Shown piece after piece: positions 1,279 through 53,443 of a DNA stretch of 64,000 bases (its first letter is position 1; each line of letters opens with the position of its first letter). The translations under genes were made by a program, and so were the position numbers. The stretch lies in NCBI GenBank assembly GCA_001544655.2, contig FCOD02000028.1, positions 1 through 64,000 on the forward strand, given 5' to 3'. The notes under the pieces were generated by a model. It worked only from the letters and a program-made list of their open reading frames with translations, was not told the origin of the DNA and did not search any database. The stretch comes from Caballeronia turbans. Lineage in GTDB: Bacteria; Pseudomonadota; Gammaproteobacteria; Burkholderiales; Burkholderiaceae.

Positions 1279-3090
1279 ATGAACTTACGCACCCTGGTTC
1301 TTGGACTGGCGGTGGTCGCGACGGCTGGCCTGAATTCATATGTGGCCCAGGCCGACTCGCAGCTCGACAGCCTGATCAAGAATCCCTCGAACTGGGCGGC
1401 GCAAGCGGGCGATTATTCGAATCACCGCTATAGCACGCTCAAGCAAATCAACGAAAACAACGTCGGCAAGCTACAGGTTGCCTGGACCATGTCGACTGGT
1501 GTGCTGCGCGGCCATGAAGGCTCGCCGCTCGTCATCGGCGACACGATGTACATCCACTCGCCGTTTCCCAACAAGGTTATCGCCATCAACCTGAAGGATC
1601 AGACCTTCATCTGGCAATACCAGCCGAAGCAGGACAATCAGGTCATCTCGGTGATGTGCTGCGATACGGTCAACCGTGGCCTTGCATATGGCGACGGCAA
1701 GATCTTCCTCCAGCAAGCCGATACGAAGCTCGTCGCGCTCGACGCCAAAACCGGCGACGTGGTCTGGACCGCGCAGAACGGCGATCCGAAGAAGGGCGAA
1801 ACAAACACCAACGCGCCGCACGTTTTCGGCGACAAGGTGCTGACCGGCATCTCGGGCGGTGAGTTCGGCGTGCGCGGACGTCTCGTCGCATACAACATCA
1901 AGGACGGCAAGGAAGTCTGGAAGGCATACAGCGTCGGCCCCGACAACGAAATGCTGATCGACCCGCAGTCGACCATGACCTGGGCCGACGGCAAGATGGC
2001 GCCCGTCGGTGCGGACTCGTCGCTCAAGAGCTGGCAGGGCGATCAGTGGAAGTACGGCGGCGGAACGACGTGGGGCTGGTACGCCTGGGATCCGAAGCTC
2101 AACCTTGTGTACTACGGCTCGGGCAATCCGGGCACGTGGAACCCGACGCAGCGTCCGGGCGACAACAAGTGGTCGATGACGATCTTCGCGCGCGATCTCA
2201 ACACGGGCAAGGCGAAGTGGGTCTATCAGATGACGCCTCACGACGAGTGGGACTACGACGGCGTCAACGAGATGATCCTCTCCGATCTGAACATCGGCGG
2301 CAAGAAGGTGCCGGCGATCGTTCACTTCGACCGCAACGGCTTCGGCTACACGCTGAATCGCGAATCGGGCGAACTGCTCGTCGCGCAGAAGTACGACCCG
2401 GCGGTGAACTGGGCCGACAGCGTCGATCTGAAGAGCGGTCTGCCGATCCGCAATGCGAGCTATTCGACGCAGAAGGCCGGTCCCGATCACAACGTCAAGA
2501 ACATCTGCCCCGCGGCGCTCGGCTCGAAGGACCAGCAGCCGGCCGCATTCGATCCGAACTCCAGCTTGTTCCTCGTGCCGACGAATCACGTCTGCATGGA
2601 CTACGAGCCGTTCCAGGTCGATTACGTGTCGGGTCAGCCGTTCGTCGGCGCAACGCTCTCGATGTACCCGGGCCCGAACGAGAACGGCGCAATGGGTAAC
2701 TTCATCGCGTGGGATGCGGCGAAGGGCAAGATCGTGTGGTCCAAGCCGGAGAAGTTCTCGGTATGGTCCGGCGCGCTCGCGACCGCTGGCGGCATCGTGT
2801 TCTACGGCACGCTCGAAGGCTATATCAAGGCAGTGCGCATCAAGGACGGCAAGGAGCTGTGGAAGTTCAAGACGCCGTCGGGCGTCATCGGCAACGTGTT
2901 CACGTACCAGTACCAGGGCAAGCAATATGTCGGCGTGTACTCGGGCATCGGCGGCTGGGCCGGCATCGGCATGGCGGCGGGTCTCGAGAAGTCGACGGAA
3001 GGCCTGGGCGCGGTCGGCGGCTACAAGGAGCTCGCGAAGTACACGGCGCTCGGCGGCACGCTCTTCGTGTTCGCGATTCCCGGCGGTTGA
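1279..3090 (+). CDS. xoxF: Lanthanide-dependent PQQ methanol dehydrogenase XoxF
   Basis: A 603-residue periplasmic quinoprotein alcohol dehydrogenase with an N-terminal signal peptide ending near AQA|D. It oxidises methanol (possibly other alcohols) with PQQ and a lanthanide. Hallmarks: vicinal cysteines C127-C128, metal ligands E195 and N283, and the DEWDYDG segment with D325 plus D327. The second aspartate distinguishes XoxF from calcium-dependent MxaF, which has alanine there. The beta-propeller repeats and full length match the family. The start has GGAGGAG just upstream. It heads xoxF-xoxG-xoxJ-unknown; no mxa or pqq biosynthesis genes are in the window. Confidence 0.97.
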
Positions 3091-3194
3091 TCCGCGTAGT
3101 TGATGTGCGCCAGTCGATGGCGATGCGCGGCGGCTGCAACGGCCGCCGCGCCGAAGTACCCCTATATACAAGACATGTTCAAGGAGTCAGACGT

Positions 3195-3614
3195 ATGAAA
3201 GGCCGATCACTCTTGCTGCTGGCGATGACGCTCGTTGCGTCGTCCGCTTCGTTTGCCCAGACGCCTGCGGGCACGGGGCAAATGAAGCCGGTCGCGTACA
3301 AGGTCGTCGATGGCAACAAGGTCGACAACGACACGCTGCAAGGCTGGAAGACCTGGCGCGCGCTGGCGTGCGAACGTTGTCACGGGGCGAAGCAGGAAGG
3401 GATGGTCGGCCCGTCGCTGATCGATGCATTCAAGACGCTGGACAAGAACGAGTTCCATCGCACGGTATTCGGCGGGCGCGTGGACAAGGGCATGCCCGAT
3501 TTCAGTTCCAGTCAGATGATGCAGAAGAACTGGGAGAACCTCTTCGCCTATCTGAAGGGACGCTCCGATGGCAAGATCAACCCGGGCGACCTGCAGGCAA
3601 TCGATGCAAAATAA
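3195..3614 (+). CDS. xoxG: XoxG-type cytochrome c, electron acceptor for XoxF
   Basis: A 139-residue exported class I cytochrome c with a signal peptide ending near SFA|Q. The heme-binding CERCH motif is at C59-H63 and M100 in the KGMPDF segment is the likely sixth ligand. AAGGAG lies 8 bases before the ATG. The gene follows xoxF by 104 bases, as in many xox clusters, and should take electrons from XoxF and pass them to a terminal oxidase. A longer overlapping frame starting inside xoxF is a shadow. Confidence 0.92.
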   Translation: MKGRSLLLLAMTLVASSASFAQTPAGTGQMKPVAYKVVDGNKVDNDTLQGWKTWRALACERCHGAKQEGMVGPSLIDAFKTLDKNEFHRTVFGGRVDKGMPDFSSSQMMQKNWENLFAYLKGRSDGKINPGDLQAIDAK

Positions 3615-3676
3615 GGACGTTGCACGGCCGATGAACGGCTAACGTCCGATGATTGCTCTCATACCCGGAGGTGTCG

Positions 3677-4588
3677 ATGTCTGATCGTAATGCAAGCCGC
3701 GCCGCTTCGTTCCGATTCCTGGCCGCGCTGTGCGCGGCATTCGCGACGTTCTCGGCGCAACAGGTGCTCGCGCAAGGCGCGGGCGGACCACCCCCCGACT
3801 TGCCGAATAACGATGGCGCGGACGGCGTGCTGCGCGTGTGCGCCGATCCCAACAACATGCCGCTCTCGAACAAGAAGGGCGAGGGTTACGAGAACAAGAT
3901 CGCGAGCCAGATGGCCAGCGATTTCGGCTACAAGCTCGAATACACGTACTGGCCGCAACGCATGGGATTCGTGCGCAACACATTGCGTGAGAAGGTGCCG
4001 CAGACGGAGCGCTTCAAATGCGATCTGATCATCGGCGTGCCGAAGGGCTACGAGCTCACTGCGACCACGCGTCCCTATCTGCATTCCACCTACGCGATGG
4101 TGTTCCCGAACAAGCCCGAATACGCGAGCATCAAATCGCCGTCGGACCTGATGAATCTGCCGCCCGAGCAGTTGAAGAAGATGAAGCTCGGCATCTTCGT
4201 GAAGAGCCCCGCGACGGACTGGCTGCTCAGTCATGACCTGATCGGGCAGGCGGTGTCGTATCAGGGGCAAAGCGGCGATCCTGAGGCCTTTCCGGGCGAG
4301 ATGATCGAGCGTGATCTGGCGCAGGGCAACGTGGATGCGGCTTTCGTATGGGGGCCGATCGCGGGCTACTTCGTGAATCGCTCCGATAACAAGGTGCGCC
4401 TCGTGCCGTTCCCGCCGGGCCAGCCGATCCGTTTCGATTATGAGATTTCGATGGGCGTGCGATACGGCGAAAAGGCGTGGCGTGACAAGGTCGATAACTG
4501 GATCGCATCGAATCAGCCGAAGATCGATCAGATTCTGTCGAGCTATCAGGTTCCATTGCTGCCGTTGCAGCCGGTAAGCGCGCAATGA
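3677..4588 (+). CDS. xoxJ: XoxJ-like periplasmic substrate-binding-fold protein of the methanol dehydrogenase cluster
   Basis: A 303-residue exported protein with a signal peptide ending near LAQ. It has a bilobed solute-binding fold of the MoxJ/XoxJ type: 'LRVCADPNNMPLSNKKGEGY' near residues 53-72, 'GVPKGYE' and 'GKVDAAFVWGP'-like segments. XoxJ proteins are thought to help activate or mature XoxF rather than transport a solute, and no transporter subunits are adjacent. GGAGG sits about 5 bases before the chosen ATG at 3677; an in-frame ATG 24 bases upstream lacks one. The stop overlaps the next start (ATGA). Confidence 0.88.
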   Translation: MSDRNASRAASFRFLAALCAAFATFSAQQVLAQGAGGPPPDLPNNDGADGVLRVCADPNNMPLSNKKGEGYENKIASQMASDFGYKLEYTYWPQRMGFVRNTLREKVPQTERFKCDLIIGVPKGYELTATTRPYLHSTYAMVFPNKPEYASIKSPSDLMNLPPEQLKKMKLGIFVKSPATDWLLSHDLIGQAVSYQGQSGDPEAFPGEMIERDLAQGNVDAAFVWGPIAGYFVNRSDNKVRLVPFPPGQPIRFDYEISMGVRYGEKAWRDKVDNWIASNQPKIDQILSSYQVPLLPLQPVSAQ

Positions 4589-5352
4589 AGCGAACATACG
4601 GGCGTTCCCTTCGCGCGTGGGCCGTTGCGTGCGCTGCGCTGTCGATGTCGGCCGGTGTGGCCGCAGCCGATGCGCCGGCTGCGGGCGCGTCCGCGCCGGG
4701 CGTCGACATCAAGCCGGCCGAGCAGTTGATCTTCATGCAGCCGCACATGAACGGTGTCGAGCCGCAGACCGAGCTCGACTACGCGGTGGATTATTCCGGG
4801 CCGCCATCCCGGGTGAAAGATACGCTGCGCGTGCTCGTCGTGAGTCCGGGTAACAACAAGAACGACGCGCATGTGTCAGATCGGACCGGCGACGTGAATG
4901 TGCCGGGCGGGCTGCCGTGCAATCCGGCGATCATCTATTTTCTCGAGCACGACATCGCGGAGATGGAGCAGTTGACGGGCGGTCAGCGGCGCTATTTCCA
5001 GCAGCGCGTGCGCATGGCGCTTGCGGCGGGGCCGGCGATCACGCCAGTGTCGAGTGAGTCGCTTGGGCTCGGCAAGCATGAGAAGGCCCGGCAAATCGTC
5101 ATACAGCCTTATTTGAACGATCCCAATGCCGAGCGCTTTAGCAAGTACACGGGCAAGCGCTATACGTTCGTCATGGCCGACGATGTGCCCGGGCGGTTGC
5201 TCATGATTCGCACCGAAGTGCCGGGGGAAGGTAACGATTTTGCACATCCTTTGCAGAAGGACACGATTGCCTATCAGGGGATGTTCAGAAATATGAACCA
5301 GCCGGGGAGTGCACCGGTTAAGGCTTCGAATGCGCCGCGGGCTAGTCGGTGA
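4585..5352 (+). CDS. Exported protein of unknown function, fourth gene of the xox operon
   Basis: A 255-residue protein with a clear signal peptide (cleavage near AAA|DA). I do not recognise the family. The mature part has an alternating mixed alpha/beta look, one cysteine in GLPCNPAII and a charged helix-like stretch HDIAEMEQLTGGQRRYFQQR. It is translationally coupled to xoxJ through an ATGA overlap, so it is very likely made together with XoxF, XoxG and XoxJ in the periplasm. A maturation or electron-transfer accessory role is inference only. The palindromic repeat B begins 11 bases after its stop codon. Confidence 0.8.
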   Translation: MKRTYGRSLRAWAVACAALSMSAGVAAADAPAAGASAPGVDIKPAEQLIFMQPHMNGVEPQTELDYAVDYSGPPSRVKDTLRVLVVSPGNNKNDAHVSDRTGDVNVPGGLPCNPAIIYFLEHDIAEMEQLTGGQRRYFQQRVRMALAAGPAITPVSSESLGLGKHEKARQIVIQPYLNDPNAERFSKYTGKRYTFVMADDVPGRLLMIRTEVPGEGNDFAHPLQKDTIAYQGMFRNMNQPGSAPVKASNAPRASR

Positions 5353-5362
5353 ATCGGTTTTT

Positions 5363-6003
5363 TTTCGCCCGATCCCGTTTTGTCTGTGGTTTATTAGCGT
5401 TGCCCCTATGCGGGGCGGCAGTCACTTTCTTTGCTGCTGCAAAGAAAGTAACCAAAGAAAGCAGCTTGTTAGGCCCGCGGTCACACGCAGTTTGGCCACG
5501 CGTGCCAGCCGATCGTGGGCTGCCTAAGTGTCGCCCTCATAGGCCCAGTCGGGCTTGGCTCGCGCACGGTCTGTCGCCCCGCGTCGCATAGCCAATTGGT
5601 TCAGCACCAAATAGCTTCGGCACAGCGCTACGCGCTGCCGCCGGGTCCACAAGGGAAACCAGCGAAGCACCCACGCAGTGAGATGGAAGCATTAGCAAGA
5701 CATTACGGGCGGACCCGATTGACCCAACGGCCGCGAAGCGGGCCGGAGCCATTTGGTGCTGAACCGCTCCGCTGTGCGATGCGAGGCGACAGACCGTGCG
5801 CGAGCCAAGCCCGGTTAGTCCTTTGAGGGCGACACTTAGGCAGCCCACGGTCACCTGGCAAGCATGGCCAAAGTGCGTGTGACCGCGGGCGTGTGGAGCT
5901 GCTTTCTTTGGTTACTTTCTTTGCAGCAGCAAAGAAAGTGACCCCCGCCCCGGGGAGGGGCAGTGCTAATAGTCCGATACGAAATCAGGATTCCATAGAA
6001 GCC
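5363..6003. repeat. Palindromic intergenic repeat, copy B
   Basis: About 640 bases with two long imperfect inverted arms (roughly 5363-5590 and 5770-6003) around a core containing 'ttcagcaccaaatag'. Each outer arm holds ACTTTCTTTGC-tgct-GCAAAGAAAGT, an 11-base perfect stem with a tetraloop (5424-5449 region and its mirror near 5920-5940). Beside it is a gcccc/ggggc hairpin. Because the arms mirror each other, nearly identical spurious peptides can be read from both strands. It separates the xox operon from the LysR gene, and the regulator's 5' end lies just beyond its right border. Confidence 0.88.
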
Positions 6004-6036
6004 CAAGCGAACCCCAAGCTCCCCCAAAAACCCCTT

Positions 6037-7011
6037 GTGAATTTCATCCGTTCCCTAACCCTGCGCCAGCTACAAATCTTCGTGATAGCAAGCCGCTGTC
6101 CGAGCTTCGCACGCGCAGCCGAGGAACTGCACCTGACCCAGCCCGCAGTATCGATGCAAATCCGCCAATTGGAAGAAGCCATCGGTCTGCCGCTGTTCGA
6201 ACGCGTAGCCCGCCGTCTCGCGCTGACGGAAGCCGGCGAGCGGCTCTCGCATCACGCAAGCCGGATACTCGGCGAAATCAAAGACGCCGAAGACGCGATG
6301 ATGTCGCTCACGCAAGCCGACAGCGGCTCGATCGCGGTAAGCATCGTCAGCTCGGCGACATACTTCGCGCCCAAGCTGCTCGCGCTATATCGCCAGCAGT
6401 ATCCGAAAGTCGATGTGCATTTCTCCGTCGGCAATCGCGAGACGCTCCTGCGTTTGCTGCAAGACAATGCGACCGACCTCGCCATCATGGGCCGGCCGCC
6501 GCCCGAGCTCGGCACCACGGCCGAGCCGCTTGCCTATCATCCGCATGTGATCGTTGCGCCGCTTTCGCATCCGTTGCGTCATGCGAAGGCCTTCGATCTC
6601 CAGGAACTCGCGAACGACACGTTCCTCCTGCGCGAGCCGGGATCAGGCACGCGTGCGGTCGCCGAGCATGTATTCCGGCAGAACCTTTTCGTGCCCGCGC
6701 GCAGCGTCACGCTCGGCAGCAACGAAACAATCAAGCAGGCCGTGATGGCGGGAATGGGCGTGAGCCTCATCTCGCTCCACACGCTTTTGCTCGAATTGCG
6801 CACTGACGAAATCGCCGTGCTCGACGTGAACGGCACGCCTGTCGAACGGACCTGGCAGCTCGTGCACTCACGCTCGAAACAACTTTCGCCGACCTGTCTC
6901 GCATTTCGTCGCTTCCTCCTCGAAAACGCGGAGCCGTTCCTCGAGCGCGAATACGCGCAGTTCGGCTTGCGCAGACCCAGACGCCTCGCCGAATCAGGCG
7001 GCGTCCGATGA
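6037..7011 (+). CDS. LysR-family regulator (CbbR-like), probable regulator of the xox/relay genes
   Basis: About 324 residues with an N-terminal winged HTH (LRQLQIFVIASRCPSFARAA...LHLTQPAVSMQIRQLE) followed by a LysR substrate-binding domain. The architecture and sequence recall CbbR/CysB-like activators. The start is set at an in-frame GTG (VNFIRSLTLRQ) because earlier in-frame codons fall inside repeat B and the next ATG would cut the HTH; no good ribosome site is visible, so the start is uncertain. Its stop overlaps the metallohydrolase start (ATGA), placing it in one transcript with the relay genes. Control of xoxF is plausible but inferred. Confidence 0.85.
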   Translation: MNFIRSLTLRQLQIFVIASRCPSFARAAEELHLTQPAVSMQIRQLEEAIGLPLFERVARRLALTEAGERLSHHASRILGEIKDAEDAMMSLTQADSGSIAVSIVSSATYFAPKLLALYRQQYPKVDVHFSVGNRETLLRLLQDNATDLAIMGRPPPELGTTAEPLAYHPHVIVAPLSHPLRHAKAFDLQELANDTFLLREPGSGTRAVAEHVFRQNLFVPARSVTLGSNETIKQAVMAGMGVSLISLHTLLLELRTDEIAVLDVNGTPVERTWQLVHSRSKQLSPTCLAFRRFLLENAEPFLEREYAQFGLRRPRRLAESGGVR

Positions 7012-7940
7012 GCGTCGCCTTCGCCTGGCGTCATGGCGTCTTCGTCATACTAATTGCATGCGCAGCTATCGCGCATGGCGAGCCAGTGCTTTCGATCACC
7101 CAGATCGCGCCGGGCGATTACGCGCATCGCGGTCACGACGATATCGCGACGCCCGACAACGGCGGCGATATCGCGAACGTGGGCTTCATCGTCGGGACGC
7201 GCTGCGTCGCGGTGATCGACACGGGCGGCACGCTCGCCGAAGGCCGCGCGTTGCGCGCCGCGATACGCGCGGTCACGCCGCTGCCGGTTTGCTATGTCAT
7301 CAACACGCACATGCATCCGGATCACATTTTCGGCAATGCGGCATTCAAGGACGATCATCCGCAGTTCGTCGGCAGCGTGGCGCTCGCGCAGGCCGAAGCC
7401 TCGCGTGCGGACAACTACATGCGCGCGCTGAACCGCGAGCTCGGCAGCGCGGCGGCGGGCAGCGAGATCGTCGCGCCGACGATGACGATCGACGGCGTCG
7501 GCACGCTCGACCTCGGCGGACGCACGCTCACGCTGCGCACATGGAAAACCGCGCATACCAACAACGATTTGACGGTATACGATGAGAAGAGCGGCACCTT
7601 GTGGACGGGCGATCTTTTGTTCGTGCGCTGCCTTCCCGTCGTCGATGGCAGCGTGACCGGCTGGCTCGACGATATTGCGCGCATTCGCCAGATGAATCCG
7701 CGTCATGTCGTGCCGGGGCACGGTCCGCTCGACCCGCCGTGGCGGCAATCGCTCGATGCCGAAGAACGCTATCTCGCCGATCTGGCGCGCGATGTGCGTG
7801 CGGCCATCAAGAAGGGCGAAACGATCCGGCAGGCCGTCGATGGTATCGGCATCGACGGGAAGGATGCGTGGCTCCTCGCCGACATCTATCACCGTCGCAA
7901 TGTGACGGCCGCTTACGCGGAGCTCGAATGGGAGCAGTAG
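7008..7940 (+). CDS. Quinoprotein relay system zinc metallohydrolase (intact metallo-beta-lactamase fold)
   Basis: A 310-residue exported metallo-beta-lactamase-fold protein with a signal peptide ending near AHG|E. All metal ligands are present: H101, H103, D105, H106 in THMHPDH, H183, D202 and H238 in PGHG. Families of this kind are annotated as 'quinoprotein relay system zinc metallohydrolase' because they travel with PQQ dehydrogenases and a SoxYZ-like carrier; the reaction is unknown. It is coupled to the LysR gene upstream by ATGA and followed after 20 bases by the carrier gene. A generic SoxH-like hydrolase is the alternative name. Confidence 0.85.
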   Translation: MSVAFAWRHGVFVILIACAAIAHGEPVLSITQIAPGDYAHRGHDDIATPDNGGDIANVGFIVGTRCVAVIDTGGTLAEGRALRAAIRAVTPLPVCYVINTHMHPDHIFGNAAFKDDHPQFVGSVALAQAEASRADNYMRALNRELGSAAAGSEIVAPTMTIDGVGTLDLGGRTLTLRTWKTAHTNNDLTVYDEKSGTLWTGDLLFVRCLPVVDGSVTGWLDDIARIRQMNPRHVVPGHGPLDPPWRQSLDAEERYLADLARDVRAAIKKGETIRQAVDGIGIDGKDAWLLADIYHRRNVTAAYAELEWEQ

Positions 7941-7960
7941 TGCAGCATTGGAGGGACATC

Positions 7961-8827
7961 ATGAAGACAACATGGTCCGGCACTCGCGCGGTGACGGTCG
8001 CGACCCTCGCCGCCGCGCTCTTCGCGCCGTATGCCGCGCGAGCGGCGCAACCCGACGACGATCCTGAGAAAGTGGTGCGCTGGCTCGACTTCAAGGAAGG
8101 CACGTTCAAGGGCCGCGCGATCGACCCGCACGGCGATGCGGTCATCAAGCTCGATGCGCCCGCGCGCGCGGCGGATGCCGCCGTCGTGCCGATCGCGGTC
8201 AACGCGCAATTCCCCCAGACGCCCACGCATTACATCAGGAAGCTCTATCTTTTCATCGACGAGAATCCCGAGCCTTATGCGGGTTCGTTCGAGTTCACAC
8301 CGGAATCGGGACTCGCGACGATCGAAACGCGCGTGCGCGTGGAGGACTACACGTTCATGCGTGTGATCGCCGAGACCAACGACGGCAAGCTCTATAGCGC
8401 AATTCGCTTCGTGAAGGCATCCGGCGGCTGCTCCGCGCCCGCCGACAAGGACGAGGACGCCGCCGAACGCACCGCGGGACAAGTCAGGATTCAGGCCGAA
8501 GGTCAGGCCGTCGCGGGCAAGCCCGAACTCGCGCAATTGATGGTGCGCCATCCGAATCGCACCGGCATGGCGATGAATCAGGTCACGCGCAACTACGCAA
8601 CGGCGTATTTCATTCGCAAGGTCTCGGTCACGTATGCGGATAAACCCGTGATGATCGCGAATGTCAATTTCTCGATCAGCGAGAACCCGAATTTCCGCTT
8701 CTATTTCGTGCCGGGCGGCAGCGGCGAATTGAAAGCGCATATCGAGGATACGAAGAACAAGCAGTGGGACGGCGCCGTGGCGATCAGCGCGCAACCGGGC
8801 GGCGCGCAAACATCGGCGATGAAATGA
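7961..8827 (+). CDS. Quinoprotein dehydrogenase-associated SoxYZ-like carrier protein
   Basis: A 288-residue exported protein, signal peptide ending near ARA|A. The N-terminal half resembles SoxY and the C-terminal half SoxZ ('HPNRTGMAMNQ...', 'ANVNFSISENPNF'), joined in one chain. In sulfur oxidation SoxY carries intermediates on a C-terminal GGCGG cysteine; here a related GGCSAP keeps the cysteine (C157) at the junction between halves. This suggests a covalent carrier arm, but the cargo is unknown and there are no other sox genes. GGAGGG precedes the ATG. It ends with an ATGA overlap into the second metallohydrolase. Confidence 0.87.
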   Translation: MKTTWSGTRAVTVATLAAALFAPYAARAAQPDDDPEKVVRWLDFKEGTFKGRAIDPHGDAVIKLDAPARAADAAVVPIAVNAQFPQTPTHYIRKLYLFIDENPEPYAGSFEFTPESGLATIETRVRVEDYTFMRVIAETNDGKLYSAIRFVKASGGCSAPADKDEDAAERTAGQVRIQAEGQAVAGKPELAQLMVRHPNRTGMAMNQVTRNYATAYFIRKVSVTYADKPVMIANVNFSISENPNFRFYFVPGGSGELKAHIEDTKNKQWDGAVAISAQPGGAQTSAMK

Positions 8828-9756
8828 CGGCGAGCCGCTGGCGAGCGCTCGTTTGCATGCTGCTCTTCGCGTTGAGCACGCTCGCGCGCGCGGCGATGAG
8901 CGGCATGCCCGCGCCCGTCGCGATCGCGCCGGGCGTGTACGCGTTCCTTGGCGACAACGATGCGGTTGCGCCCGCGAATCACGGCATCGTCGCGAACAAT
9001 GGCTTCATCGTCGGGCCGGAGGGCGTGACCGTGATCGACACGGGGGCGTCGTATCGCTATGGCCGCGCGATGATCGAAGCGATCCGCAAGATCACGCCGT
9101 TGCCGGTGAAGCTCGTCATCATCACGCATCAGGCGCCCGAGTTCGTGTTCGGCGCGGCCGCGTTCCGTGACGACGGCGTGCCGATCCTCGCACACGCGCG
9201 CGCCGCGCAACTGATCCGCGAGCGCTGCTCGATCTGCCTCGCCAATCTGCGCAAGACGCTCGGCGAAGATGAAATGGCCGGCTCGCGTGTGACGGTGCCC
9301 GACAAGACGGTGAACGGCACGACGGAAATAGAGAGCGGCGGGCGCCAGCTGCAATTGCTGCACTTCGGGCCCGCGAGCACGCCCGGCGACCTCGCCGTGC
9401 TCGACACGCAAAGCGGCGTGCTCTTCGCGGGCGGGCTCGTCTCGAACGGACGCATCCCCGAATTGCGCAACGAGCAGATTCCCGGCTGGCTCGCCGCGCT
9501 GGAAAACCTGCATGCCCTCGACCTGAAGACGGTTATTCCGGGCTTCGGCGCGCCCTTGCGAGGCGACGGCATCATGCGCACGGGCGACTATCTCCGCGAA
9601 CTCGATGCAGCGGTGAAGCGAGCCTACAAGAACGGCGTCGGCCTCACCGAGGCGATGCATACCGTGCAAGTGCCCGCGTTCGAGCATGACAAGCTCTATG
9701 CGATCGCGCAGCCGCAGAACGTGCAGCGCATCTATCTTCAGCTCGAAAAGCAGTAA
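8824..9756 (+). CDS. Quinoprotein relay system metallohydrolase paralogue with degenerate metal site
   Basis: A 310-residue exported paralogue of the metallohydrolase two genes upstream, with the same fold and length. The zinc site is lost: THMHPDH is replaced by THQAPEF (only H102 remains; A104, E106 and F107 replace H, D, H), the bridging aspartate becomes G (AGGLV) and PGHG becomes PGFG. It carries a CSIC pair (C134, C137) absent from the intact paralogue. It is probably a non-hydrolytic partner or binding protein in the relay system. Translation is coupled to the SoxYZ-like gene. Confidence 0.85.
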   Translation: MTASRWRALVCMLLFALSTLARAAMSGMPAPVAIAPGVYAFLGDNDAVAPANHGIVANNGFIVGPEGVTVIDTGASYRYGRAMIEAIRKITPLPVKLVIITHQAPEFVFGAAAFRDDGVPILAHARAAQLIRERCSICLANLRKTLGEDEMAGSRVTVPDKTVNGTTEIESGGRQLQLLHFGPASTPGDLAVLDTQSGVLFAGGLVSNGRIPELRNEQIPGWLAALENLHALDLKTVIPGFGAPLRGDGIMRTGDYLRELDAAVKRAYKNGVGLTEAMHTVQVPAFEHDKLYAIAQPQNVQRIYLQLEKQ

Positions 9757-14870: not shown

Positions 14871-15707
14871 ATGGACGCAATTCGCATCGAGCGTCTCACC
14901 AAGACGTTCGGAAACGGCCGCAAGGCGCTCGATTCCGTCGATCTGCGCGTGGAGGAGGGCGAAATGGTCGCGCTCATCGGCGCATCGGGGTCCGGCAAAT
15001 CGACGCTCCTGCGGCACATCGCGGGCTTCACGGCATCCGACCCCGCGCCATCGCACGTCACGTTGCTCGGCCGGCCGATCCAGCAGAACGGCAGGATCGT
15101 GCGCGAAGTGCGCCCGATCCGCCGCGACGTCGCCTTCGTGTTTCAGCAATTCAATCTAGTCGGACGCCTTTCGGTGCTGACCAACGTGCTGATCGGCGCG
15201 TTGTCGCGCGTATCGCTGTGGCGGCGTCTCGCGGGCCGCTTCCCGCGCGGCGAGCGCTCGCTCGCGATGGAATCGCTCACCGCGATGGGCATCGGCGAGC
15301 ACGCATTCGAGCGCGCGAGCAATCTGTCCGGCGGCCAGCAGCAACGCGCCGCACTGGCCCGCGCGCTCGTGCAGCGCGCGCGCATCGTGCTCGCCGATGA
15401 GCCCATCGCATCGCTCGATCCCGAATCGGCGCGCCGCGTCATGGAGTTGATGCAGGCGCTCAATCGCGAGCACGGCCTGACGGTCGTCGTGTCGCTGCAT
15501 CAGATCGATGTGGCGATGAAGTACTGCCCGCGCACGATCGCGTTGCGCGATGGCCGCGTCGTGTTCGACGGCGCGAGCGAGCGCCTCACGTCCGCCGTGC
15601 TGCGCGAGCTGTACGGCTCGTCGGCGGACGAACTGCTCACGCATCGCAGCGCGCCGAGCGCGCACACGCAAGCTTCGCAGGCATTCGCCTCGGCCGCGGG
15701 CGTTTAA
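14871..15707 (+). CDS. phnC: Phosphonate ABC transporter ATP-binding protein PhnC
   Basis: A 278-residue ATPase: Walker [10 protein letters not shown] near residue 38, LSGGQQQR signature near 144, Walker [13 protein letters not shown] and the switch histidine in SLHQ. It powers phosphonate import with PhnD and PhnE. GAGGGA precedes the ATG. First gene of phnCDE, spaced 33 bases from phnD. Confidence 0.95.
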
Positions 15708-15740
15708 GTTTCGAACCGAACATCAACCCTGGATCGCATC

Positions 15741-16712
15741 ATGAAAACAGCCCGTCTCTTCCTGGCCGGCGCCGCGCTCGCGTCTTGCCTTCTGACGCAG
15801 ACCGTTCTTGCCGAGACGATCAACTTCGGCATCATCTCCACCGATTCGTCCGCCGCGCTCAAGCAGCGCTGGCAGCCGCTCATCGACGATCTGAACAAGC
15901 AGACCGGCCTCGACGTGAAGGCGTATTTCGCGACCGACTATGCGGGCATCATCGAGGCGATGCGCTTCAACAAGGTGCAGATCGGCTTCTTCGGGAATGC
16001 TTCGGCGATCGAAGCCGTCGATCGTTCGAATGGCGAAGTCTTCGCGAAAGTGAAGTACAAGAACGGCGAAGCGGGCTATTACTCGCTGCTCATCACGAAC
16101 GCGAACAGCAAGTGGAAGTCGCTCGATCAGGTGCTGAAGAACACGAAGGACATCAATCTCGGCTTCGGCGATCCGAACTCCACGTCGGGCACGCTCGTGC
16201 CTTCGTACTATCTGTTCGCGAAGAACGGTATCAATGCGAAGCGCGCGTTCAAGAGCGTGTTGCCGTCGAGTCATGAGGCGAACATGCTCGCGGTCGTGAA
16301 CGACAAGATCGACGTCGCGACCAACAACACCGACATGCTCGACACCATCAAGAAGCAGCATCCGGAGCTGTATCCGAAGGTGCGCGTGCTGTGGAAGTCG
16401 CCGCTGATCCCGTCCGACCCGCTCGTGTGGCGCCGCGATCTGCCGCAGGCGACGAAGGAAAAGCTGCGCAGCTTCTTCGATCACTACGCTGAAAAGGATC
16501 CGCGCGAGCAGGCGGTGATGGCTTCGATATCGGGTTATTCGGGCTTCGCGCATTCGTCGAACGCGCAGCTCGTGCCCATTCGTCAGATGTCACTCTTTCA
16601 GAAGAAGGAGCAGGTGCAGAACGATGCGCATCTCGACGCCGCCGACAAGGAAGCGCAGCTCGCAGCGCTCGATCAGAAGATCGCCGCGCTCGACAGCACG
16701 GCGGCGAAGTAA
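15741..16712 (+). CDS. phnD: Phosphonate-binding periplasmic protein PhnD
   Basis: A 323-residue solute-binding protein with a signal peptide ending near VLA|E. Family features are NFGIISTDSSAALKQRWQPL at the mature N-terminus, 'YAGIIEAMRFNKVQIGFFGN' and DPNSTSGTLVPSYY, which form the phosphonate pocket. The C-terminal stretch is rich in Q and K and coiled-coil-like, as in other PhnD proteins. The stop codon abuts the phnE start directly. Confidence 0.95.
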   Translation: MKTARLFLAGAALASCLLTQTVLAETINFGIISTDSSAALKQRWQPLIDDLNKQTGLDVKAYFATDYAGIIEAMRFNKVQIGFFGNASAIEAVDRSNGEVFAKVKYKNGEAGYYSLLITNANSKWKSLDQVLKNTKDINLGFGDPNSTSGTLVPSYYLFAKNGINAKRAFKSVLPSSHEANMLAVVNDKIDVATNNTDMLDTIKKQHPELYPKVRVLWKSPLIPSDPLVWRRDLPQATKEKLRSFFDHYAEKDPREQAVMASISGYSGFAHSSNAQLVPIRQMSLFQKKEQVQNDAHLDAADKEAQLAALDQKIAALDSTAAK

Positions 16713-17531
16713 ATGAAGCCGCTCGACGTAGCCACGTTCGAGGCCGGCGTCGTCCGGCCCATCACGACGAGCGCACCCAGGCGAAGCTGGACGTCGATGC
16801 TCGGCTGGATCGTCGTCATCGCCGTGCTCGGGCTGTCATGGAAAAGCGCGGACATGCGTCCGCTCGATCTGCTCGGCGCATCGGGCAACATGAGCGAGTT
16901 CGCACGCGACTTCTTTCCACCCGACTTCACGGAATGGCGCACGTATGCGCATGAAATGATCGTGACGCTCGCGGTCGCGGTGTGGGGCACGGCGCTCGCG
17001 CTGGTTTGCGCAGTGCCGTGCGGCTTGCTTTCGGCGCAGAACATCGCGCCCGCGTGGGTCTCGCAACCGGTGCGACGTTTGATGGACGCGTGCCGCGCGA
17101 TCAACGAAATGGTCTTCGCGATGCTCTTCATCGTCGCGGTCGGGCTCGGTCCGTTCGCCGGCGTGCTCGCGCTTTGGGTGCATACGACGGGCGTGCTCGC
17201 GAAGCTTTTCGCGGAAGCGGTCGAGGCCGTCGATTCGAGGCCCGCCGAAGGCGTGCGCGCCACCGGCGCGAGCAGTCTCGATGAAATCGTCTACGGCGTG
17301 CTGCCGCAGGTGTTGCCGTTGTGGATCTCGTTCGCGCTGTATCGCTTCGAGTCGAACGTGCGCTCCGCGATGGTCGTCGGCATGGTGGGCGCGGGCGGGA
17401 TCGGCGTCGTGCTCTATGAGGCGATCCGCTCGTTCAACTATGCGCAGACATGCGCGGTGATGCTGATCGTCATCGTGATCGTGTCGCTGATCGACCTCGT
17501 ATCCGGCTGGGTGCGCGAGCGCGTGATCTGA
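16713..17531 (+). CDS. phnE: Phosphonate ABC transporter permease PhnE
   Basis: A 272-residue inner-membrane permease with about six membrane helices and the EAA loop '[22 protein letters not shown]' near residue 170 that contacts PhnC. Its first base follows the phnD stop without a gap, so translation is probably coupled. One phnE gene only; some loci have two. Confidence 0.95.
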
Positions 17532-17635
17532 GCTGCGTCACGACATCAGGACGTGGCGGCATTTGCGTGTCTGCCTCAAAATTCCTCGGCCACCGTGAAT
17601 TGTCCCGTCGCGGAAGAGAGAAGGGCGCGGTGAGC

Positions 17636-18196
17636 CTAGACGCGGCCCGCGACCGCGAGCACGTCGAGGAATTGCGTGCCGGCGTCGGCGAGCATGCCGG
17701 AATTGTCGATGTTCACGACGCGCGCGTGCGACGGCAATTCGAACGCGGGGCGGCGCGCAAGCCGCGCTTCGATCTGCCGCGCATCCTCGCGTCCGCGGCG
17801 CGCGAGACGCGCGGCCAGGACCGAAGGCGTTGCATCGATATGCACGAAGCGCGCGTCGGGATAACGGTCGAGCGCGAGTCCCGCGTGCTGCCGCGAACCG
17901 TTCACGACGACGGGCATGCCGCGCGCAAGCCACGCATCCAGTTCGATGCCGATGCCGTAGCGCAGCCCGAGGCTCGTCCAATGCATCGCGAAGAGGCCAT
18001 ATGAAAGCCTCGAAGTGAACTCGTCATGCGACAGCGCGATATGGTTCTCCCCTTCCCCGACCGCGCGCGTGATGTAGCGATGCGCGAACATCACCTGCGC
18101 GCCGATGCGTTCGCGCGCGAAGCCGAGCAAAGAGTCCTTGCCCGCGCCCGATGGTCCCATCACGTAGATCAGTTTCGAGCTATCGACTTCGGTCAT
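17636..18196 (-). CDS. phnN: Ribose 1,5-bisphosphate phosphokinase PhnN
   Basis: A 186-residue guanylate-kinase-fold protein with a P-loop GPSGAGKDS near residue 14. It converts ribose 1,5-bisphosphate to PRPP, returning the ribosyl product of C-P lyase to nucleotide metabolism. The start ATG overlaps the end of the upstream DUF1045 gene by four bases, the last step of phnF-DUF1045-phnN. A longer in-frame extension lies in the neighbour and was ignored. It converges toward phnE. Confidence 0.92.
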   Translation of the reverse strand: MTEVDSSKLIYVMGPSGAGKDSLLGFARERIGAQVMFAHRYITRAVGEGENHIALSHDEFTSRLSYGLFAMHWTSLGLRYGIGIELDAWLARGMPVVVNGSRQHAGLALDRYPDARFVHIDATPSVLAARLARRGREDARQIEARLARRPAFELPSHARVVNIDNSGMLADAGTQFLDVLAVAGRV

Positions 18197-18885
18197 GCCA
18201 CATCCTGTGCGTTGTTGAACGGCAGGCGCTGCCACAGCGTGAAGGCCGCGCCCGGCTCGGGTTCGATGAAAAGCGCCGCGCCGTGCACCGGCAGCGGGCC
18301 GAGCGCATCGATGCGCCGCATCCATTCCGACACGATCGACGCGCGCGCGTTCGCGTCGTCGAGCGAATCTGAAAGCGTCATGTGAAAGCGATATTCGTCG
18401 AAGACATACGGATAGCCCCATGCGCGCAGAAGCTCGACCTGGCGCGCGCTCATGTCCTCGTGAATGCGCCGTTCGAGGCTTTCAGGCGAAGGCGTGGCGC
18501 GTAGCCCGGAAAGCGCCTGCAGGGCACTGGCGGCGAGCGTGCGAAGCGTCGCGTCGTCGCTGGCTTCGGCGGGCCGCAGCGCGACGAAGCGGCCCAGTTC
18601 GGCCGCCTTGACGCGCATCTCGAAGCGCGGCACTGCGCTTGCCCATGCGCGAGCGCACGCGAGCACGTCCGCGAGTTCGATGCCGGGGGCCATGTGGAAG
18701 GGCGCGACGAGCGTCGCGTGCCAGCCGTAACGGCGCGGCGCATGCGTGACGTCATGAACGGCCGTCGCGGTCTCGCGTCCGTTCTCGGGATCGCGCCCGA
18801 GCCACTCGCAACCGTCGCGCCACCATGCGGAGGAGGCGGGCGGGGCGTAATAGAGCGCCACGCGCGGATGGGCGGCAACGCTCAT
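18193..18885 (-). CDS. DUF1045 phosphonate-operon protein, 2H phosphoesterase-like
   Basis: A 230-residue protein of the phn-associated DUF1045 family. Two H-x-T motifs (H56-A-T58 in GWHATLVAPF and H168-M-T170 in FHMTLS) are spaced as in 2H phosphoesterases, which act on cyclic phosphates. C-P lyase makes a 5-phosphoribosyl 1,2-cyclic phosphate that PhnP normally opens; no PhnP is in the window. A cyclic phosphodiesterase role is inferred from the motifs and position. It is coupled on both sides by four-base overlaps. Confidence 0.88.
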   Translation of the reverse strand: MSVAAHPRVALYYAPPASSAWWRDGCEWLGRDPENGRETATAVHDVTHAPRRYGWHATLVAPFHMAPGIELADVLACARAWASAVPRFEMRVKAAELGRFVALRPAEASDDATLRTLAASALQALSGLRATPSPESLERRIHEDMSARQVELLRAWGYPYVFDEYRFHMTLSDSLDDANARASIVSEWMRRIDALGPLPVHGAALFIEPEPGAAFTLWQRLPFNNAQDVA

Positions 18886-19640
18886 AGATCGTGCTCGACC
18901 ATCAACTGCACGCGGTCCGCCGCGAAATGCGTGATGCCGTATTTGATCGGCACGCCGTTCTCGTCGACATCGACGTTCTCGACCCACAGCACCGGCTGCT
19001 GACGATTGATCTGCAAGCGCCGCGCCACGTCCGACGAAGGAAGCACGCTGCCGATGCGGCTCCATTTGCGCGTGTAGTCCTTCACGCCGAACTTCGCAAG
19101 CGCAGCGCTGATGCCGCCCGCCGCTTCGATCGACGCGGGCAGATCGTTGAAGCGCGTGGCCGGATACCAGTTACGCGCGTAAGTCATCGGGATGCCGTCG
19201 GAATCGTGGCGCGTTTCGATCTGATAGACGAGCGTGCCCGCGCGCACGCCGAGTGCCTTCGCGACGGCCGGATCGGCCTTCACGCGCTCCGAGCTCAACA
19301 CGACGCCCGCCGACGTGTGCTTCTGGCGGCGCAGGTTCTCCGTGAAGCGCGTGCGGCGTCCGATCTGATAGTCGATCGCGCCCGGCTGCACGAACGTGCC
19401 GCGCCCCTGCTCGACGCTGACGAGGCCCGTCGCGGCGAGCCGAAGCATCGCGCGGCGCACGGTATGACGGTTCACGTCGAAGCGCCTGGCGAGTTCGGCC
19501 TCGCTCGGCAGACGTCCTTCGTCGCCGAAGCTCTTTGCGGCGATCTCCGCGGCGAGGATCTGCTCGATCTGCCGCCAGACCGCAACCCCCGCGCCGCGCT
19601 CGACCGCATGGAGAGGCGCGGCATTTTCGCTGGATGTCAT
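18882..19640 (-). CDS. phnF: GntR/HutC-family regulator PhnF
   Basis: A 252-residue regulator: GntR winged HTH (RLPSEAELARRFDVNRHTVR near residues 43-62) plus a UTRA ligand domain. PhnF regulators repress phn genes. The start is the internal ATG (MTSSENAA); a longer frame adds 18 poorly supported residues. It is divergent from phnG, with a perfect CGTCTAGACG palindrome between them that fits a HutC-type operator. Confidence 0.92.
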   Translation of the reverse strand: MTSSENAAPLHAVERGAGVAVWRQIEQILAAEIAAKSFGDEGRLPSEAELARRFDVNRHTVRRAMLRLAATGLVSVEQGRGTFVQPGAIDYQIGRRTRFTENLRRQKHTSAGVVLSSERVKADPAVAKALGVRAGTLVYQIETRHDSDGIPMTYARNWYPATRFNDLPASIEAAGGISAALAKFGVKDYTRKWSRIGSVLPSSDVARRLQINRQQPVLWVENVDVDENGVPIKYGITHFAADRVQLMVEHDL

Positions 19641-19733
19641 GGCGCTGTCATTCCTGTCGGTTTGAATATCGTTCTTCCGGATTGTAGTGCGCAACTCGTG
19701 ATGGAAATGTGAAAAGCCTCACTACACGACCAA

Positions 19734-19744
19734 ACGTCTAGACG
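19734..19744. promoter_or_regulatory. Candidate PhnF operator between phnF and phnG
   Basis: A perfect ten-base palindrome CGTCTAGACG (19735-19744) matching the GTNTANAC pattern of HutC-subfamily regulators. It is centred about 65 bases before phnG and 100 before phnF, so it can serve both. The nine bases ACGTCTAGA recur on the opposite strand at the phnC promoter. Confidence 0.65.
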
Positions 19745-19803
19745 ACTAGATAAGGCGACGAGTAGCATAGGACGGCCGGATCCTTTCGAACATAGGGAAA
19801 GCG

Positions 19804-20286
19804 ATGAGTAATTCAATGGAGTCGCGGAACGCTTTCGGCCGCCGTGAATGGATGGCGGTGCTCGCGCGCACGCCGCGCGACGCGCTGAAACAGGCGCTCG
19901 ATGCGGCGCTCGAAGGCGCGAAGGTGCCCGCTTATGTGTGGCTGCGCGCGCCGGACATCGGGCTTGCGATGGTGCGCGGGCGCATCGGCGGCACGGGCGA
20001 TGCGTTCAATCTCGGCGAGACGACCGTCACGCGCGCCACGCTGCGTCTCGTGCTCGACGACGGCAGCGCGCCGGTCGGCGTCGCGGTACACATGGGCCGC
20101 GACAAGGAGCGCGCAACGCTCGCCGCGCTCGCCGACGCGCTCCTGCAGATGCCCCGCTATGCGGACAAGTTGCAGACGCAACTGGTTGCACCGCTGGCCG
20201 CACGCATCGCCGATGAGCGGCGTCGCAAGGAAGCCGAAGCGGCCGCGACCAAGGTCGAATTTTTCACGATGGTGAGAGGCGAATGA
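19804..20286 (+). CDS. phnG: C-P lyase subunit PhnG
   Basis: A 160-residue subunit of the PhnGHIJ core complex. FNLGETTVTRATLRL and 'YTWGRDK'-like segments are family features. Start supported by AGGGAAA. Overlaps phnH by four bases (ATGA). It begins the phnGHIJKLM operon, in which every junction is either an overlap or within about 10 bases. Confidence 0.93.
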   Translation: MSNSMESRNAFGRREWMAVLARTPRDALKQALDAALEGAKVPAYVWLRAPDIGLAMVRGRIGGTGDAFNLGETTVTRATLRLVLDDGSAPVGVAVHMGRDKERATLAALADALLQMPRYADKLQTQLVAPLAARIADERRRKEAEAAATKVEFFTMVRGE

Positions 20287-20906
20287 TGCAGATCGACATG
20301 ACCCGGCTCGTGCCCGGCTTCAACGACACGGTGCACGACGCGCAGCGCGTGTTCCGCGCGTTGCTCGATGCGCTGTCGCGCCCGGGCAGCATCGTCGCGA
20401 TCGATGCCGCGTTGCCGAACAATCACGCAATGCGCGATGCGCTCGCCGCACGCGTGCCGCTCGCGGCGTTCGCGTCGCTGCTCGCGCTGACGGATTATTC
20501 GACGCCGGTTTTCATCGAGCGCGAAGACGGCGTGCTGGGCGACGCCCTGCGTTTTCACGCGAGCGCGACCTTGACGCGCGATCGCCGCGCGGCCGCGTTC
20601 GCCTATATCGACGATGCGCGCGACATGCCTTCGCTCGATACGTTTTCGCACGGCGATCCCGAATCGCCCGAGGACTCCGCGACGTTGTTCATTCGCGTGC
20701 CCTCGTTGACCGAAGGCGAACCGCTTGCATGGCGCGGTCCCGGCATCGCGGCGTCGCGCACGGTGGGCATTGCGGGATTGTCGCGCGAGTTCTGGCGCGA
20801 GCGCGCGGCGCTCACCGCGCTCTTTCCTTGCGGCATCGATTGCTACTTCGTCGCGGGCGGCTCGCTCGTCGGCCTGCCGCGCACGACGCACGTGGAGGTG
20901 AGCTGA
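20283..20906 (+). CDS. phnH: C-P lyase subunit PhnH
   Basis: A 207-residue homologue of PhnH, which pairs with PhnG/PhnI in the C-P lyase core. 'LVPGFNDTVHDAQRVFRALLDALSRPG' occupies the conserved N-terminus. Two consecutive ATGs (20283 and 20286) are possible starts. It overlaps phnI by one base (TGATG). Confidence 0.93.
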   Translation: MMQIDMTRLVPGFNDTVHDAQRVFRALLDALSRPGSIVAIDAALPNNHAMRDALAARVPLAAFASLLALTDYSTPVFIEREDGVLGDALRFHASATLTRDRRAAAFAYIDDARDMPSLDTFSHGDPESPEDSATLFIRVPSLTEGEPLAWRGPGIAASRTVGIAGLSREFWRERAALTALFPCGIDCYFVAGGSLVGLPRTTHVEVS

Positions 20907-22006
20907 TGTACGTCGCGGTCAAGGGTGGTGAACGCGCCATCGAACGGTCATGGGACGTGCTCGCGAAAAAGCGTCGTGGCGATGTCGCCGTGCCCGAGCT
21001 TTCCGTCGCGCAGATTCGCGAGCAGATGCGTCTTGCCGTCGCGCGCGTGATGACTGAAGGCTCCGTCTACGACGAAGACCTCGCCGCGCTCGCCATCAAG
21101 CAGGCGGCGGGCGATCTCGTCGAAGCGATCTTCCTGCTGCGCGCCTATCGCACGACATTGCCGCGCTTCGGCTACACGCTGCCGATCGACACGGAAGCCA
21201 TGTGCGTCGAGCGCCGCATCTCGGCGGCGTTCAAGGACATTCCCGGCGGCCAGATGCTGGGCGGTACCTACGACTACACTCAGCGCCTGCTCGATTTCAC
21301 CTTGCTCGCCGAAGGCGAACAAGTTGGCGATGCAACTATCGCGGCGAAGGCTTCCGGCGAAAGCGCGATGCCGCGCGTGCTGTCCATGCTCGACAAGGAA
21401 GGCCTCATCGAGCAGGAACGTTCGCACGAGAACGCGCCGCCACCGGGCGATCTGTCGCGCGAGCCGCTGTCGTTTCCCGCCGATCGCTCGACGCGCCTGC
21501 AAAACCTCGCGCGCGGCGACGAAGGCTTTCTGCTCGCGGTCGGCTATGCGACGCAGCGCGGCTATGCGCACAGTCATCCGTTCGCGGGCGAGATCCGTCA
21601 CGGCGAAGTGGCGGTGGAGATGGTCGTCGATGAGCTGGGCTTCGCGGTCGAGATCGGCGATATCGAAGTGACCGAGTGTCAGATGATCAACCAGTTCGCG
21701 GGCAGCGGCGATGTGCCGCCGACGTTCACGCAAGGCTATGGCCTCGCCTTCGGTCATTCGGAGCGCAAGGCGATGGCGATGGCGCTCGTGGACCGCGCAT
21801 TGCGCGCGGAAGAACTGGGTGAGTCCGTTGCTTCGCCCACGCAGGATGCCGAGTTCGTGCTGTACCACAGCGATAACGTGGAAGCGTCCGGTTTCGTGCA
21901 ACACCTGAAATTGCCGCATTACGTCGATTTCCAGTCCGAGCTGGAGCTGCTTCGCCGCCTGCGTGCGGCGCATGGCGCGGATGACAACAAGGAGAATGCG
22001 GCATGA
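20906..22006 (+). CDS. phnI: C-P lyase subunit PhnI
   Basis: A 366-residue nucleosidase-type subunit that, with PhnGHL, transfers phosphonate onto the ribose of ATP. MYVAVKGGERAI begins the protein and is the family N-terminus; HSHPFAGEIRHGEV is a conserved central block. GGAGGTGA precedes the ATG. A longer frame running back into phnH was rejected. Overlaps phnJ by ATGA. Confidence 0.95.
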   Translation: MYVAVKGGERAIERSWDVLAKKRRGDVAVPELSVAQIREQMRLAVARVMTEGSVYDEDLAALAIKQAAGDLVEAIFLLRAYRTTLPRFGYTLPIDTEAMCVERRISAAFKDIPGGQMLGGTYDYTQRLLDFTLLAEGEQVGDATIAAKASGESAMPRVLSMLDKEGLIEQERSHENAPPPGDLSREPLSFPADRSTRLQNLARGDEGFLLAVGYATQRGYAHSHPFAGEIRHGEVAVEMVVDELGFAVEIGDIEVTECQMINQFAGSGDVPPTFTQGYGLAFGHSERKAMAMALVDRALRAEELGESVASPTQDAEFVLYHSDNVEASGFVQHLKLPHYVDFQSELELLRRLRAAHGADDNKENAA

Positions 22007-23624: not shown

Positions 23625-23634
23625 GGTGCGACAG

Positions 23635-52699: not shown

Positions 52700-52792
52700 T
52701 TGTTTTTGAGGGCGAGGGCGGAGGTGGGGGCTTTCCTATGGTAGTGGGTTTGCTTTTTGTGCGTTTGTACGGTGGATTGCTTTTGGGTTTCG

Positions 52793-53431: not shown

Positions 53432-53443
53432 AACAAACAACCC

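Follow-up and report, generated by a model that had tools for sequence, protein, structure and literature searches.

Described quinoprotein relay systems and the Caballeronia locus

Fused SoxYZ-like carriers and metallohydrolases of the metallo-beta-lactamase (MBL) fold are already known from the vicinity of pyrroloquinoline quinone (PQQ)-dependent alcohol dehydrogenases: NCBIfam names the carrier (TIGR04557) and a metallohydrolase (TIGR04559, 'quinoprotein relay'), and the link to the dehydrogenase is in print. A review (PMC12997753; this and the other papers given by PubMed Central (PMC) number are cited from excerpts) lists a carrier and a metallohydrolase in the ped cluster of Pseudomonas putida, reports transposon data with minimal effects under rare-earth-poor conditions, and proposes roles in disulfide formation, cofactor stabilisation or shielding of PQQ from sulfur nucleophiles. 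Fused SoxYZ has also been described beside xoxF and formate dehydrogenase genes, or beside a PQQ alcohol dehydrogenase, and soxH is in the vicinity (PMC11237559); in Hyphomicrobium a SoxYZ fusion and SoxH are found by a PQQ enzyme (PMC11582611). Otherwise the gene set has a name but has received little study. Here we describe a related locus of Caballeronia turbans, contained in a 64,000-nucleotide stretch of contig FCOD02000028.1 (henceforth referred to as 'the window'), in which a metallohydrolase (MBL1), a fused carrier and a second MBL-fold protein (MBL2; the three together henceforth referred to as 'the module') follow xoxF. Judged from its residues, MBL2 is a separate, unnamed paralogue of MBL1 in which the zinc site has been exchanged for a CxxC motif that is invariant across its clade.

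Eight genes, all on the + strand between positions 1279 and 9756, lie in the order xoxF-xoxG-xoxJ-ORF4-LysR-MBL1-SoxYZ carrier-MBL2. The gene set given in a preliminary description of this DNA is confirmed, and the features are as follows.

1279..3090, + strand: xoxF, PQQ alcohol dehydrogenase; 723.7 bits to TIGR03075, over the cut-off; lanthanide-type aspartate and vicinal cysteine pair
3195..3614, + strand: xoxG, small cytochrome c; PF13442; below every curated cut-off; conserved across the loci of the genus
3677..4588, + strand: xoxJ, periplasmic binding protein; 299 bits to TIGR03871 (cut-off 212)
4585..5352, + strand: ORF4 (open reading frame 4), conserved exported protein; family unnamed; no NCBIfam match
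5354..6005, no strand: repeat, imperfectly palindromic; an insertion that separates ORF4 from LysR in this strain; outside the module
6037..7011, + strand: LysR regulator, CbbR-like; start codon uncertain, frame open back to 5893
7008..7940, + strand: MBL1, exported zinc metallohydrolase; complete site; cysteine pair C66/C95; 390 bits to TIGR04559 (cut-off 280)
7961..8827, + strand: fused SoxYZ-like carrier; Cys157 on the KASGGCSAP arm; 257.8 bits to TIGR04557 (cut-off 140)
8824..9756, + strand: MBL2, MBL-fold paralogue without zinc site; CxxC at C135/C138

All of the encoded proteins except LysR combine a hydrophobic stretch with AXA-like ends compatible with a Sec signal (by a home-made check in which ORF4 was the weakest of the seven), in line with the signal peptides previously assigned to them.

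Compared with the named quinoprotein relay families, the carrier and MBL1 of the window pass the curated cut-offs, and named examples stand beside XoxF in Azoarcus and Phyllobacterium; MBL2, on the other hand, reaches neither metallohydrolase cut-off, and unlike MBL2 the aligned examples of relay metallohydrolase type 1 (L204, L205) and type 2 (L206, L208 and Azoarcus) retain 7/7 zinc ligands and lack a CxxC. The order in Azoarcus sp. KH32C is xoxF, cytochrome c, XoxJ, two hypothetical proteins (by similarity, ORF4 and a small cysteine-rich protein), metallohydrolase 2, carrier and an 'MBL fold metallo-hydrolase', with intergenic gaps of at most about 91 bp throughout this run. The Sox system (SoxYZ with SoxB, SoxXA and SoxCD) shares the carrier folds and the cysteine arm. 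The arm motif of SoxY, GGCGG (a motif also found in the name of TIGR04488), is terminal, whereas the GGCSAP arm of the window is internal to a fused protein; moreover, SoxB over its cut-off was found in 0/58 genomes of the genus, SoxXA and SoxCD not having been searched for, and six of them gave weak SoxB matches of 29-52 bits, where the cut-off is 550. The P. putida ped cluster resembles the locus in having a carrier (PP_2677) and a metallohydrolase (PP_2678) beside a lanthanide-type quinoprotein, but one metallohydrolase and a rhodanese (PP_2666) are named there, as opposed to the two MBL proteins here (PMC12997753). The earlier proposal of a thiol-carrier pathway beside an alcohol dehydrogenase is partly supported by our results, although the carrier and MBL1 belong to families that already have names and the association is in print; that its chemistry is undefined agrees with the literature found.

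The zinc site of MBL1 and the CxxC of MBL2

MBL1 of the window holds all seven zinc ligands (H101, H103, D105, H106, H183, D202 and H238), and MBL2 retains one of the seven. Whereas MBL1 combines a complete zinc site with 390 bits against the TIGR04559 cut-off of 280, MBL2 falls outside both relay metallohydrolase families on score (220.9 bits against 280 for TIGR04559 and 209 against 300 for TIGR04558) as well as on its zinc site, and 0/29 MBL2 members matched any NCBIfam family at E <= 1e-82, a threshold close to that of the relay cut-offs. The preliminary description had contrasted an intact hydrolase with a dead one. The contrast in zinc ligands stands; the word 'dead' does so for the zinc hydrolysis site, but the CxxC conserved across the clade, which had gone unremarked there, argues that MBL2 is not simply inactive.

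For comparison, MBL sequences were assigned to MBL1 or MBL2 by their position beside the carrier (genus loci by best match; L104 and two L141 rows by hand from tree or position), and those below 230 residues, including MBL1 of L191, were left out of the tree and the motif counts. Removal of identical cores left 82 MBL1 and 68 MBL2 sequences, of which 19 and 20, respectively, came from genus genomes and 62 and 46 from named loci. All seven ligands were present in 82/82 MBL1 and in 0/68 MBL2 sequences (which keep 0 to 4), whereas the CxxC at C135/C138 was present in 68/68 MBL2 and in 0/82 MBL1 sequences; in 61/68 these two are the sole cysteines of the mature MBL2. The cysteine pair C66/C95 was found in 79/81 MBL1 sequences as opposed to 0/18 single MBL proteins of other taxa, 16 of which are intact and none of which has a CxxC. 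The two remaining single proteins are degenerate in a different manner (L087:6974-7708 and L105:8627-9445); each is the sole MBL beside its carrier, with an NxHxDY motif and 4/7 ligands, and their ligand loss is independent of MBL2 on the tree. In that tree, built by a quick method with midpoint rooting, no bootstrap and some long branches, all 48 MBL2 rows group in a single clade (97 in the Shimodaira-Hasegawa-like approximate likelihood ratio test, SH-aLRT).

Median ratios of nonsynonymous to synonymous substitution rates (dN/dS) in the genus were 0.150 for MBL2 (29 sequences), 0.171 for MBL1 (28 sequences) and 0.140 for the carrier (30 sequences), MBL1 of L047 and L059 and MBL2 of L059 (which has a stop) having been left out, and these values indicate that MBL2 is under purifying selection, as is MBL1. 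We rejected the notion that MBL2 is a decaying pseudogene in view of its single clade, its conserved CxxC, its dN/dS and its fusion with MBL1. Decaying copies do occur in a leaf-symbiont-like Caballeronia genome (L191, L059), where MBL1 is interrupted, H101 is lost (L191) and xoxF is in pieces.

The fusion was seen in two marine betaproteobacteria, Betaproteobacteria bacterium TMED100 (L162) and Betaproteobacteria bacterium AH-736-P17 (L170), as a single frame that spans about 650-670 residues and immediately precedes the carrier. Its N-terminal half scored higher with the MBL2 than with the MBL1 profile (126.6 against 61.6 bits and 83.8 against 53.0 bits), holds 0/7 ligands and carries a CxxC in the MBL2 column, and the C-terminal half corresponds to an intact MBL1 (344 and 335 bits). 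XoxF was not found within the stretch at either locus. Their natural fusion in one chain is good evidence for joint action of MBL1 and MBL2. In the excerpts available from the open-licence PMC literature, an MBL protein without zinc site but with a CxxC was not found described for such loci.

The carrier comprises Pfam SoxY and SoxZ domains within one protein, and its only cysteine, C157, sits at their junction and is invariant among relatives, as the preliminary description had it for the window. The arm cysteine, in the pattern (V/I)(K/D...)(A/T)(S/A)GGC, aligns across all carriers of the alignments made; extra cysteines elsewhere were seen in a few open frames that had been translated between successive stops, and the nearest solved chains are SoxY proteins. 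A contig scan with the carrier alignment gave matches to at least 593 stretches, among them 584 relatives, and the best 80, mostly from Burkholderiales and relatives, Rhodocyclales and Methylococcales, were kept; the counts of locus order, gene position and zinc ligands across carrier loci rest on these best 80 of at least 593. In 64 of the 80 loci MBL1 is found upstream of the carrier, and in 46 MBL2 is found downstream of it; 36 loci have both, 28 only MBL1, 10 only MBL2 and 6 neither (some contigs end nearby, and the fusion loci are counted as lacking MBL2). Several Burkholderiales loci (for example L104:13288-13980) hold a second carrier copy of about 40% identity after MBL2, often with an adjoining thioredoxin-like gene. 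None of 12 pattern matches in viral contigs was confirmed as a relative.

Linkage of the module to XoxF and its loss

XoxF of the window has WDYD at residues 324-327, where D327 is the aspartate typical of lanthanide-dependent enzymes. The same aspartate was found in 71/72 XoxF-type rows, the XoxF of the window among them; a PQQ alcohol dehydrogenase near the carrier at L088 lacks it. The enzyme combines the family score with this additional metal ligand and is a putative lanthanide-dependent methanol dehydrogenase. Two PQQ alcohol dehydrogenases of the genome exceed the family cut-off; it also encodes one fused carrier and one relay metallohydrolase over its cut-off. The carrier lies by XoxF, which is 5 kb upstream of the carrier, and not by the other dehydrogenase. 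The latter (G000:C54:363003-364526, L002) is 37% identical to XoxF and also has WDYD; the single carrier of the genome is that of the window. The nearest named relative of XoxFGJ is Caballeronia novacaledonica (97% identity).

In a profile search, with cut-offs, of 299 genomes sampled from the phylum, an uninterrupted full-length fused carrier was found in 33; a further 21 exceeded the carrier cut-off only via in-frame stops or joined pieces, which looks like separate soxY and soxZ. A PQQ alcohol dehydrogenase over the cut-off was present in 33/33 genomes with the fused carrier as opposed to 67/299 overall (Fisher p about 1.6e-25, uncorrected for kinship), and the linkage of carrier and xoxF recurs across distant taxa. 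Because the gene order recurs in relatives, we judge the gene set to be more than a chance association. That the module neighbours xoxF as a mere passenger is very improbable: the repeat does part the two halves of the locus in this strain and the block is missing from seven genomes with XoxF, but the co-occurrence with the dehydrogenase, the recurrence in distant taxa and dN/dS of 0.14-0.17 all speak against it.

Within the genus, the carrier was found in 38/58 genomes, all of which are among the 47 with XoxF at >=89% identity (45 full-length, one of these with two stops, and 2 fragmented). Nine genomes have XoxF without the carrier: seven belong to one clade and two are small and probably decaying. 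In a quick tree of 50 XoxFGJ rows the seven module-less genomes formed one clade (SH-aLRT 100; 93 for two forks above) nested among module bearers that include Paraburkholderia, and a single loss of the block is for this reason the simplest reading. The pattern indicates that the module is a unit, accessory and dispensable for the retention of XoxF. The earlier view that these genes belong together and with XoxF is supported, but needs amending in that the module is accessory and missing from seven congeners.

LysR had been listed together with the module genes, and here the evidence points the other way. It is retained without the module in L092-L098 and missing from the module-bearing L101 and L102; accordingly LysR goes with the xox genes, and we rejected it as a part of the module. 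The nearest family of the window's LysR is CbbR, at 289.5 bits below the cut-off of 450. In congeners the spacings LysR-MBL1, MBL1-carrier and carrier-MBL2 range from -22 to 80 bp, and the gap between ORF4 and LysR is 22-24 bp in L100 and L108. In the window ORF4 and LysR are separated by the repeat of about 650 bp, itself an imperfect palindrome, further copies of which lie in intergenic positions at 33-536 (partial) and 52786-53436; one of the three sites is an inverted pair. The repeat could split the transcript in this strain, and a single transcript is not assured.

Relatives of ORF4 were present in 29/48 carrier loci with wide flanks; no Pfam match was obtained in 28/28 relatives, and comparison with solved structures gave two chance-level matches only (E 0.3 and 0.42). 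The ORF4 rows of L133 and of some other loci were left out. Many loci outside the genus encode, by ORF4 or the carrier, a small exported CxC protein with further cysteines (L104:9452-9805, L083:8146-8532, L202:6801-7151), for which two scanned members gave no NCBIfam or Pfam match. Elsewhere in the window, a gene run at 14871-25529 looks like a phosphonate-utilisation cluster from the first residues of its proteins.

Possible roles of the module

We consider it probable that the module is a carrier cassette in which MBL1 is hydrolytic and MBL2 acts in thiol redox chemistry. The fuller proposal, that this periplasmic thiol-carrier cassette is accessory to XoxF and serves a formaldehyde route, is the one we favour, tentatively. 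More doubtful still is that MBL2 represents a new family, of MBL fold with a CxxC dithiol in place of the zinc site, acting as redox partner of MBL1 on a shared carrier in a formaldehyde route with lanthanide-dependent alcohol oxidation. What the sequences themselves provide is a SoxY-type arm cysteine, one complete zinc hydrolase, a zinc-less CxxC paralogue, gene linkage, selection and fusions. The fold of MBL2 is that of an MBL protein and not of a thioredoxin, and the redox activity of its conserved CxxC is putative.

In the favoured proposal MBL1 and MBL2 would be sister folds with a common target, the carrier arm, and might form a heterodimer; the case for their partnership is strengthened by the fusion in L162 and L170. 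MBL1 would hydrolyse an acyl group off the carrier thiol, and the MBL2 dithiol would keep this thiol free or return it to that state. Formaldehyde from XoxF might, with less support, be the source of the adduct: formaldehyde and the carrier thiol would give S-hydroxymethyl-carrier, which a quinoprotein would oxidise to S-formyl-carrier, from which MBL1 would release formate by hydrolysis. XoxF1 of M. extorquens produces formaldehyde (PMC6414531). Such a route would be the protein-bound counterpart of cytoplasmic glutathione-dependent formaldehyde oxidation (FlhA/FrmA and FghA), with which it would share thiol adduct, oxidation and hydrolysis. The module is not a member of that system, however, having a protein thiol, a periplasmic location and an MBL hydrolase as opposed to glutathione, the cytoplasm and an esterase fold.

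The genes of the glutathione route adjoin the module in some loci. S-(hydroxymethyl)glutathione dehydrogenase follows directly after MBL2 in L154 and L157, with S-formylglutathione hydrolase also after the module (by family in L157, by similarity in L154), and in Sinorhizobium medicae the carrier and metallohydrolase 2 stand beside both enzymes. Upstream of xoxF, genus loci that reach far enough encode pterin-4a-carbinolamine dehydratase as well as proteins resembling beta-RFAP synthase, an ATP-grasp protein and a dehydrogenase; this set may represent tetrahydromethanopterin (H4MPT)-type one-carbon (C1) metabolism, the dehydrogenase being putatively of the methylene-H4MPT type; H4MPT-type genes were found in 12/103 loci. 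A neighbourhood census (148 proteins from 26 chosen loci, home-made gene calling) returned beta-propellers, ABC transporters and C1-type enzymes as frequent Pfam families, with formate-dehydrogenase-like domains in 3, and no sulfur-oxidation family among the 25 most frequent of 190. A C1 substrate is favoured over sulfur because of these C1 neighbours, the lanthanide aspartate of the XoxF-type rows and the lack of SoxB over the cut-off in the genus.

Several observations weigh against the formaldehyde proposal. Seven Caballeronia genomes hold xoxF-xoxG-xoxJ-ORF4-LysR followed by no MBL1, carrier or MBL2; XoxF was not found within the stretch in 16/48 carrier loci with wide flanks; 10/80 loci have MBL2 but no MBL1 beside the carrier; FlhA-like and FghA-like genes each occur in 7/103 loci; the H4MPT-type genes of the genus are a formaldehyde route that exists without the module; and the SoxYZ relatives of the carrier are known for sulfur compounds.

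This last point leads to sulfur protection, which comes close behind the formaldehyde proposal, though we hold it to be rather unlikely. Here the carrier would capture sulfite, thiosulfate or sulfane sulfur that would otherwise poison PQQ or XoxF, the SoxH-like MBL1 would free the oxidised sulfur, and MBL2, or elsewhere rhodanese and thioredoxin proteins, would reset the thiol. The kinship of the carrier with SoxYZ and of MBL1 with SoxH is consistent with such a role, authors have suggested a shielding of methanol dehydrogenase or PQQ (PMC11237559, PMC12997753), and an XoxF-type thiol dehydrotransferase is reported to serve a tetrathionate route in Advenella kashmirensis (PMC6548844, PMC9774590, PMC10301885). 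Genes for CXXCW rhodanese-type and thioredoxin-like proteins also lie near other carriers. As a counterpart of MBL2 the CXXCW rhodanese gave a mixed picture: among 50 genomes, MBL2 was present in 33 (a gene of its own in 31, a domain of a fusion in 2) and the rhodanese over its cut-off in two without detected MBL2 (L180 and L189) and in none of the other 48, so that the two never occur together, yet 15/17 genomes without MBL2 have neither. The 31 genomes in which MBL2 is a separate gene, a set that excludes the genome of the window, gave no PQQ_CXXCW protein over the cut-off. Against sulfur protection stand the missing SoxB and the census, whose commonest families are of C1 and PQQ type; on the former ground we also set aside the module as part of thiosulfate oxidation.

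An unlikely alternative is that the module forms or mends the vicinal disulfide of XoxF or the site of its cofactor, as put forward in PMC12997753. The CxxC of MBL2 and the cysteine pair of MBL1 would suit thiol chemistry of this kind, but XoxF proteins 89-90% identical to that of the window are kept in the seven module-less congeners, and a zinc hydrolase has no obvious role in disulfide formation. Slightly more improbable again is that in these bacteria of soil and plants the substrate of XoxF is another alcohol, the acyl product of which the carrier handles. The carrier family does occur with other quinoproteins, as in the Pseudomonas ped cluster (PMC12997753), and at L088 it is near the dehydrogenase without the lanthanide aspartate; the near-universal aspartate of the neighbouring XoxF-type rows and the C1 genes nearby argue against it.

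Lanthanide-dependent alcohol oxidation is widespread. The exchange of a zinc site for a CxxC, together with the natural fusions, offers a concrete, testable hypothesis, at the level of single residues, on the thiol roles of the module, and proteins annotated as 'MBL fold metallo-hydrolase' at such loci are not necessarily hydrolases.

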